A stretch of DNA of 64,000 bases from NCBI GenBank assembly GCA_905182355.1, contig CAJJBH010000037.1:42963-106962 (forward strand), in the 5' to 3' direction. The stretch comes from an uncultured Paracoccaceae bacterium (GTDB lineage Bacteria; Pseudomonadota; Alphaproteobacteria; Rhodobacterales; Rhodobacteraceae). The translations under genes were made by a program, and so were the position numbers. Shown piece by piece: positions 49,263 to 51,224 of the stretch (positions are counted from its first letter, which is position 1; each line of letters begins with the position of its first letter). Below the pieces are notes generated by a model. That model did not search any database, was not told the origin of the DNA, and saw only the letters and a list, made by a program, of their open reading frames with translations.

Positions 49263-49639
49263 AGCCAAAGATGCGCATGTCGTGCACCTTTGGCTAACAA
49301 TTATTCGGCGGCAATGGCCTTGTTGGTCAATTTGTCCAAGGCACCCGTAATTTTTTGTAGTGCAGGCCTGTCTGCAGGGATGCCATGCGCGTCTGCAAGC
49401 GCGGTAGGTGTGTGGTAGACGACGTGTACTTTTCCATCGGCATCTTCAAAAGAGACCACGCGCAGTTGCAGATCAAGACCCATAGATTGCTGTGTCAGCA
49501 TCAGGGGGGCCCCAAGCTTTGGGTTGCCAAACATCAGCATCTGAGTTGGGCGTAATTCTTCACCAACCGAGGCGGCCCCTTTTGGACCTGTCGCGGTTTG
49601 ATGCCGATTCTTTGATAGCATTTACGGCAACAAAGGAGA

Positions 49640-49921
49640 TTGACTTTGGGACTGAAACGGACGGATGAATTCCGCCAAGATGCGGTGCGTCTGGCACTGA
49701 CTAGTGGGCTGACACGCAAGCAGGTCGCTGATGATCTTGGTGTGGGCATGTCGACGCTGAACAAGTGGATCACAGCGCATCCGGATACTGACGTGGTGTC
49801 GAAAGATGATTTGGGACTAGCCCAAGAGAATGACCGGCTTCGGCGCGAGAACCGTATTCTCAAGGAGGAAAGGAAAATTCTAAAAAAGGCCACGGTGTTC
49901 TTCGCGAGCCAAAAGCCGTGA
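49640..49921 (+). CDS. IS3 family transposase OrfA
   Basis: LKRTDEFRQDAVRLALTSGLTRKQVADDLGVGMSTLNKWI...RILKEERKILKKATVFFASQKP; annotated start 49640 overlaps the element by frame. Confidence 0.88.
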   Translation: MTLGLKRTDEFRQDAVRLALTSGLTRKQVADDLGVGMSTLNKWITAHPDTDVVSKDDLGLAQENDRLRRENRILKEERKILKKATVFFASQKP

Positions 49922-50174
49922 GGTTTAGGTTTATTGAAGAACACTGATCTGCATTTTCCATTGGACGTGTGTATCATGTCATGAATGTCAGCACGCGCGG
50001 CTTGCGGGCATTCCGCAGCCGTCCTGCAAGCCGCAGGCAACGGTCTGATTTGGTCACGCTGGCGCATATCAAAGAACAGTCACGTCTCAGTCTGGGCAGT
50101 TATGGTCGCCCACGAATGACGGAAGAGTTGAAAGACATTGGCCTGGATATCGGCCATCGCCGCGTGGGGCGTTT

Positions 50175-50211
50175 CCCTCTCATCGCTGCAAGCAGCGACT
50201 AAGGGCAGTGG
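50175..50211 (+). repeat. Palindromic mini-element A in IS3 orfB
   Basis: CCCTCTCATCGCTGCAAGCAGCGACTAAGGGCAGTGG; stem TCGCTGC-AA-GCAGCGA. Confidence 0.7.
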
Positions 50212-50263
50212 ATGCTCCAGAACGGCATATCAGTGATCAGAACACGTAAACACAAGGTGACGA

Positions 50264-50305
50264 CCATTGCCCGGCAGGCGATTGCAAGGCAATCTGCCGA
50301 GAGGG
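50264..50305 (-). repeat. Palindromic mini-element B in IS3 orfB (inverted orientation)
   Basis: Reverse complement CCCTCTCGGCAGATTGCCTTGCAATCGCCTGCCGGGCAATGG; stem GATTGC/GCAATC. Confidence 0.7.
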
Positions 50306-50638
50306 AGACAGTAATCACAAGTTCAACATCGCTCCGAACTTGTTGGATCGTAACTTCTCAGCAGAACAGCCAAACGAGAAGTGGGCTGGTGACATTACCT
50401 ATATCTGGACCCGGGAAGGCTGGCTGTATCTTGCTGTGATCCTGGACCTTCATTCTCGGCCAGTCATTGGTTGGGCCGTCAGCAATCGGATGAAGCGTGA
50501 CTTGGCGATCCGGGCTTTGAACATGGCCATAGCATTCCGAGCGCCGCCCAAGGGCTGCATCCATCATACCGACCGTGGCAGTCAATATTGTTCGTACGAT
50601 TACCAGAAGATCCTGCGCCAGCATGGCTTCAAGGTCTC

Positions 50639-50678
50639 CTCTCTCATGGTTGGCAAGCAAACCACTGCCGGGCAGCGG
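50639..50678 (+). repeat. Palindromic mini-element C in IS3 orfB
   Basis: CTCTCTCATGGTTGGCAAGCAAACCACTGCCGGGCAGCGG; stem TGGTTGGC-AA-GCAAACCA (one mismatch). Confidence 0.7.
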
Positions 50679-51224
50679 GTGAGCGGCAAGGGTAATTGTT
50701 ACGATAACGCCGCCGTCGAGACCTTCTTCAAAACCATCAAAGCCGAATTGATTTGGCGGGACACATGGGAAACGCGCAGACAAGCTGAAAGGGCGATCTT
50801 CGAATACATCAACGGCTTCTACAATCCGCGACGACGCCACTCGGCATTGGGGTGGAAAAATCCGGTCGCTTTCGAACGAAAAGTGGCTTAAACGAGCGCT
50901 TGGGGCGGCACTAAAGCGTGACAGGCCCCTTTTGCATGATCAACACGGGCGAAGACTGTAGCTCCTGCGCCATTAACGGCAGCTTCTAGTCGATCAATTG
51001 TAACATCAACGGTGTGTGGGCTGGTTTTTGTGATCATTTTGGCACCTGCTTGGCTGGTTGGAAAAACGGTGGTGGTCGCCGCGACAATAGTAGTTTTGAG
51101 GAACGTTATATTTGAAACGCCCAAGGCTACGCATGTGCAGTATTACAATCACAAGCGTATCCAACTGTCCCATCACATTCTTGAGACCAGTGGGTGCCCA
51201 CCTTAGGGGGCGGGCACCCACTGG

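Follow-up and report, generated by a model that had tools for sequence, protein, structure and literature searches.

A family of small, probably mobile hairpins residing mostly in the transposase genes of insertion sequences in Rhodobacteraceae

The window, which is the whole 64,000-nt stretch analyzed here, lies on contig 37 of a draft genome (2.74 Mb, 100 contigs, 87% complete) and contains an IS3-family element whose orfB is interrupted by three short self-complementary segments, the mini-palindromes A, B, and C. The features of the locus are as follows.

49583–50911, + strand: IS3-family element hosting A, B, and C, aligned to positions 1–1213 of the intact relative L119
49640–49921, + strand: orfA of the IS3 element (Pfam domain HTH_Tnp_1)
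49969–50891, + strand: orfB remnants (HTH_21, rve), broken by A, B, and C, plus a TGA stop upstream
50175–50210, + strand: mini-palindrome A, 36 nt, CCCTCTC-ATCGCTGC/GCAGCGA-..GGGCAGTG, at T^GATG in OrfB (VGRL^M)
50265–50305, − strand: mini-palindrome B, 41 nt, stem GGCAGATTGC/GCAATCGCC, at C^GTCG in OrfB (TT^DSN), antisense to OrfB
50639–50677, + strand: mini-palindrome C, 39 nt, stem ATGGTTGGC/GCAAACCAC with one mismatch, in OrfB (KVS^VSGKG)

An alignment assuming no motif showed that the window IS3 contains exactly three segments, measuring 36, 41, and 39 nt, that are absent from L119, an element of plasmid pDSM107133_f of Pseudosulfitobacter sp. that is annotated as an IS3 family transposase. 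The intact relatives are 1213 bp long, are annotated as full transposases, and lack all three segments. A sequence-only reading of this DNA had already placed the three interruptions correctly, with each segment drawn one base beyond the precise insert, and had predicted that their removal would restore the order of OrfB. Exact excision of CCCTCTC..CARTG, with the next G kept, indeed recovered VGRLMLQNGIS, HKVTTDSNHKF, and GFKVSVSGKGNCYDN. The pattern CTCTCN{10,40}GGCARYGG occurs four times in the window, always within A, B, or C, compared to 0.27 occurrences expected from shuffles. Both the site and the stem of A are matched in the C79 copy L002, and the site of B is also filled in L105, L152, L161, and L163. 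In addition, the window OrfB carries, near its start, an extra TGA stop (approximately 49945–49947) where the relatives have CAA. This stop, which is unrelated to the inserts and had been missed by the sequence-only reading, leaves the window IS3 copy inactive with or without them. The IS3 element itself splits a DUF302 gene (pieces at 49301–49621 and 50888–51124, both on the − strand; PF03625 matched the first piece only), and an 11-nt direct repeat, GGCCCCTTTTG, is found at 49574–49584 and 50924–50934, which is long for an IS3 target duplication.

A covariance model (R1), built from exact-pattern hits, detected approximately 24 clustered copies in the window genome (E ≤ 1). The sequence-only reading had named two findings that would speak against a mobile family, namely, that active relatives carry the segments as normal OrfB sequence and that the genome holds no further copies with these ends. 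Neither was the case, and dispersed copies with the same ends were found both in the window genome and in many relatives. In a sample of 151 genomes of Rhodobacteraceae, the family of the window genome, 67 were carriers, with a maximum of 43 copies per genome; in a class-wide draw, 10 of 242 genomes were positive, four of which belonged to the same family. The very weak matches L126 and L128 were left uncounted, and the plain IUPAC pattern was too loose for use outside the family, where its forward counts were close to those of the control. Copies also reside on plasmids with finished public sequences from Sulfitobacter, Leisingera, Phaeobacter, Roseobacter litoralis, and Octadecabacter arcticus, and one rich genome was identical over 951 bp to pDSHI04 (NC_009958.1) of the laboratory strain Dinoroseobacter shibae DFL 12, where the IS5 concerned, carrying two inserts, is present at four places. 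One of these IS5 copies spans 2049–2999 of pDSHI04, with its elements at 2482–2523 and 2789–2830. In the window genome (G000), three stretches dense in IS remnants (L010, L018, and L004 on contigs C21, C44, and C1) hold about five elements per 1–3 kb. A genome of another alphaproteobacterial family (G264; L183–L186 and L124) contains a homogeneous REP-like set with the same ends and the stem GGGTGTGC/GCACACCC. These look-alikes occupy non-IS, apparently intergenic, positions, so that residence in IS is not universal; the set may be a non-IS relative of the mini-palindrome family.

All the copies share one build: CCCTCTC is fixed at the 5′ end and CTGCCGGGCARTG, which is able to form a second tiny hairpin, at the 3′ end, and between them lies a short-looped, self-complementary stem that varies in both sequence and length; the overall length is 36–46 nt. 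The 81 distinct stems fold at a mean of −5.9 kcal/mol, compared to −2.4 kcal/mol for chimeras of half-stems, and the outermost stem pair is of the Watson-Crick type in 77 of them (37 expected). In the model-fitted alignment, which leans towards structure, paired cells amounted to 93% (73% in shuffles), and the covariation score was 0.43 (0.14 in shuffles; 0.08 in the best slid control). Individual elements fold just modestly better than shuffles, and thus the evidence for the stem is comparative. Covariation of the stem between fixed ends, which the sequence-only reading had noticed in the three segments, is strong, and the stem is real. No Rfam 15 family matched any element in six loci.

The insertion sites share a short motif. 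Among 106 distinct sites, the 5′ base is C (67%), T (21%), or A (9%), pyrimidines making up 88% and G being absent, and the bases following the insertion point are G (83%), A (65%), T (62%), and G (64%). GATG follows in 32 of the 106 sites, compared to a background of 0.6%, and many target sites are merely GA- or GT-like. Comparison of filled and empty copies revealed no target duplication (e.g., GGGCC^GTC with a 40-nt insert). Insertion occurred in either orientation, and the lengths and positions of the inserts are independent of codon phase. In 52 related IS3 copies, position 353 is filled in five lineages and positions 589–592 and 646 in several; the reused positions often hold different stems, and intact copies are nested between filled ones on the tree. 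In the intact element, positions 353, 592, and 979 each have the sequence NGATG. Recurrent insertion at preferred GATG sites is the simplest account of these shared positions, and explains why unrelated IS copies are filled at the same places. Common descent of the shared sites was rejected because the tree needs 4–5 changes per site with intact copies between the filled ones; close filled pairs such as L161 and L163 may nevertheless share one insertion.

For 67 distinct loci, the site was classified from the ORFs surrounding it after excision, and Pfam was applied to a subset; duplicates, the look-alikes of G264, and two very weak hits were left out. In this set of best-scoring hits, which is no full census, 60 of the 67 sites are in or at IS, most of them inside transposase ORFs, and the IS belong to at least ten families (IS3, IS5, IS21, IS1182, IS256, IS6, IS91, IS110, IS30, and IS630). 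Repeated landing in this IS3, as proposed by the sequence-only reading, is thus part of a wider habitat formed by IS transposase genes in general. Four sites are non-IS: two follow a glf gene and a dksA/traR-like gene, respectively, and two lie within ORFs, one of a RelE-type toxin and one RHS-like; the other three were assigned to neither group. The RelE-type ORF (L190, G014 C1 near 2485222) belongs to a toxin-antitoxin pair (PF06296). No intact host gene carrying an element was found among the classified sites. Precise excision regained ORFs of IS3 OrfB (308 aa, four inserts; 339 aa, two inserts), IS21 IstA (516 aa, three inserts), and IS1182 (369 aa, one insert). Up to seven model hits lie within about 1 kb in L094. 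Part of this preference for IS could stem from carriage and survival on them and not from targeting.

Our preferred interpretation, to which we assign a probability of roughly 0.8, is that A, B, and C arose through three separate insertions of members of a single family of very small non-autonomous mobile hairpins that, in Rhodobacteraceae, reside almost entirely in IS transposase genes. The comparisons show the family with its ends and covarying stem, the preference for Y^GATG, the lack of target duplication, the residence in IS, and the recurrent use of sites; orientation is free, and the inserts disrupt the frame of the host transposase gene. Because of the hairpin, the short target, the absence of duplication, and the free orientation, we presume that they move as a folded strand by means of an enzyme supplied in trans that recognizes the hairpin feet; neither such a mover enzyme nor an autonomous relative was found. 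The hairpin, carried by many marine Rhodobacteraceae, looks like a parasite of parasites.

The family was compared with known small palindromic elements. REPs and REPINs, which are associated with RAYT transposases, are dispersed, non-autonomous, imperfect palindromes of 20–40 nt with many stem families and possible inverted pairs (PMC3733652, PMC3116915). The mini-palindromes are likewise small imperfect palindromes of that kind in many dispersed copies, with many stems and no autonomy. In contrast to REPs, which bear a GTAG or CGTC tag and lie between genes, the mini-palindromes end in CCCTCTC and CTGCCGGGCARTG, with no such tag beside the hairpin in either orientation (ends CCCTCTC and GCARTG), and reside inside IS transposase genes rather than in extragenic positions, the G264 copies excepted. 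Their target is Y^GATG, and no general RAYT is present in the carriers: PF01797 was detected in 15 of the 151 genomes, and three of the four genes examined are not flanked by the repeats. Rhodobacter, Roseobacter, and Ruegeria are absent from the main text of the main survey of tagged REPs (PMC3733652). The Rickettsia palindromic elements (RPEs) are about 150 bp long and translated, being inserted into metabolic genes with the frame preserved (summarized in PMC10969869). The mini-palindromes resemble them as palindromic selfish DNA within ORFs of an alphaproteobacterium, whereas they are about 40 nt long, shift the frame, and occupy transposase genes, with none of the 100–150 bp in-frame insertions in host genes that characterize RPEs. 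The sequence-only reading, which had called the segments REP/RPE-like, was thus right about a mobile palindrome family, as filled and empty sites, dispersed copies, conserved ends, and a covarying stem attest; membership among RAYT-driven REPs or Rickettsia RPEs did not hold, as far as tested. With classical MITEs they share the state of small non-autonomous mobile DNA, but they consist of one hairpin only and have neither the terminal inverted repeats of a resident IS nor target duplications at their boundaries. IS200/IS605 elements and their PATE derivatives are hairpin-based, cause no target duplication, and use a short target motif. The mini-palindromes agree in these three respects and differ in having no body flanked by a left and a right hairpin end and in the lack of a Y1 gene in most carriers. 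A keyword search of the open-access literature, which is no proof of novelty, yielded no description of such elements in Rhodobacteraceae. The family is apparently undescribed, being REP-like in size and different in ends, target, and habitat. A dedicated class of hairpin inserts inside IS, which are among the most abundant bacterial genes, seems to be unreported. Such inserts account for some of the transposase annotations in roseobacters that are split or marked as pseudogenes; in Octadecabacter, for example, one transposase is annotated as three CDS around one element copy.

Alternative explanations were also considered. That A, B, and C represent normal or ancestral parts of OrfB, or artifacts of assembly, is very improbable. 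The window genome is admittedly a draft, but the intact relatives lack the segments, and the family occurs on finished plasmids, including those of Sulfitobacter, Leisingera, R. litoralis, O. arcticus, and D. shibae. Mobilization of ordinary REPs by a Y1/HUH (RAYT) transposase is unlikely, yet the least unlikely of these alternatives. Single-strand HUH chemistry is consistent with the size, the hairpin, the short target motif, and the lack of a target duplication, and elements occur in 12 of the 15 Y1-bearing genomes compared to 55 of the 136 others (Fisher p = 0.005), an association that could be explained by a general excess of mobile DNA. However, 55 of the 67 carriers, including the rich carriers G024, G088, G096, and G013, have no PF01797 match, so that a resident Y1/RAYT transposase, for which the sequence-only reading had proposed a check, is not the general mover. 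Three of the four Y1 genes examined (G000, G145, and G112) have no nearby element, and the fourth, in G105, sits between two elements that each lie in a different IS remnant. The consensus of the family also lacks the REP tag. We rejected RAYT as a general mover on the weakness of the association and the many carriers without a Y1 gene.

Another explanation is that the laden IS stay active and tolerate the inserts because these are removed, be it by RNA splicing, by translational bypass, or by precise excision from the DNA. Such IS have indeed multiplied: G024 has six copies of an IS3 with four inserts each, and G096 has four laden IS3 copies (two with the full six inserts and two with deletions and fewer inserts), in addition to the IS5 of pDSHI04. 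Neither G024 nor G096 yielded a full-length intact copy of the same IS3, and the laden ORFs are often free of stops apart from the inserts. Their dN/dS is 0.05–0.1 over long distances, like that of intact ones, and mainly reflects the time before insertion. On the other hand, the free orientation, the disregard of codon phase, and the absence of intact host genes with an insert are opposed to removal, and the change after insertion appears near neutral. Post-insertion differences were 3 synonymous and 12 nonsynonymous in G024 and 11 and 15, plus one stop, in G096, compared to 321 and 77 in two diverged intact pairs (p = 5e-10), although a comparison of short with long time scales is not strictly valid and a recent intact pair also showed 0 and 7. 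Comparison of excision, orientation, codon phase, and post-insertion divergence provided no evidence for splicing or bypass, and we rejected removal as the main reading; its probability is low, marginally below that of the defense considered next. Mobilization of disabled copies in trans is more likely: the IS copies would mostly be disabled by the inserts and multiplied by the transposase of other copies. A host or plasmid system that directs hairpins into IS as a transposase-inactivating defense might be suggested by the location of about 90% of the classified sites in IS of so many unrelated families, by the density at L094, and by the sharing of this niche with one or more further hairpin types. 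This is improbable, since no linked gene was found, a tetranucleotide that is common in DNA serves as the target, part of the bias is accounted for by survival in dispensable DNA, and the insert-bearing IS still multiply. If the preference for IS is targeting, it would represent a new kind of interaction between mobile elements and possibly a natural brake on transposition.

In the same IS, the motif-free alignment also revealed further inserts of comparable size. A type 2 hairpin, CCATTGTCCTCGGACCAATGGCGGACAA, of about 36–38 nt, likewise within IS, was observed at no fewer than 12 distinct sites in the loci examined (L138, L140, L148, L174, L093, L098, L108, L111, L187, L191, L196, and L197) and was not found in the window genome. 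At least one further hairpin type thus shares the IS niche. A possible type 3 hairpin, GGAAA..TCCGGGGGA..TTTCC, of about 43 nt, showed the exact pattern at two sites, with looser copies seen by eye (L105 at IS3 position 302, L155, L174, L178, and L045:1711); several copies lie at the orfA/orfB overlap near the IS3 frameshift region. We can speculate, with considerably less confidence than for the main interpretation, about a guild of hyperparasitic mini-palindromes, comprising at least two and possibly three unrelated types, that actively seek IS transposase genes and are moved in folded form by a novel enzyme, with stems that may stay complementary through arm-copying during movement and not through selection. 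Finally, a 32-nt part just outside an IS3 end in G024 (L032:2869–2900) recurs at a dozen places in that genome, which hints that the IS3 in G024 may insert beside another repeat.
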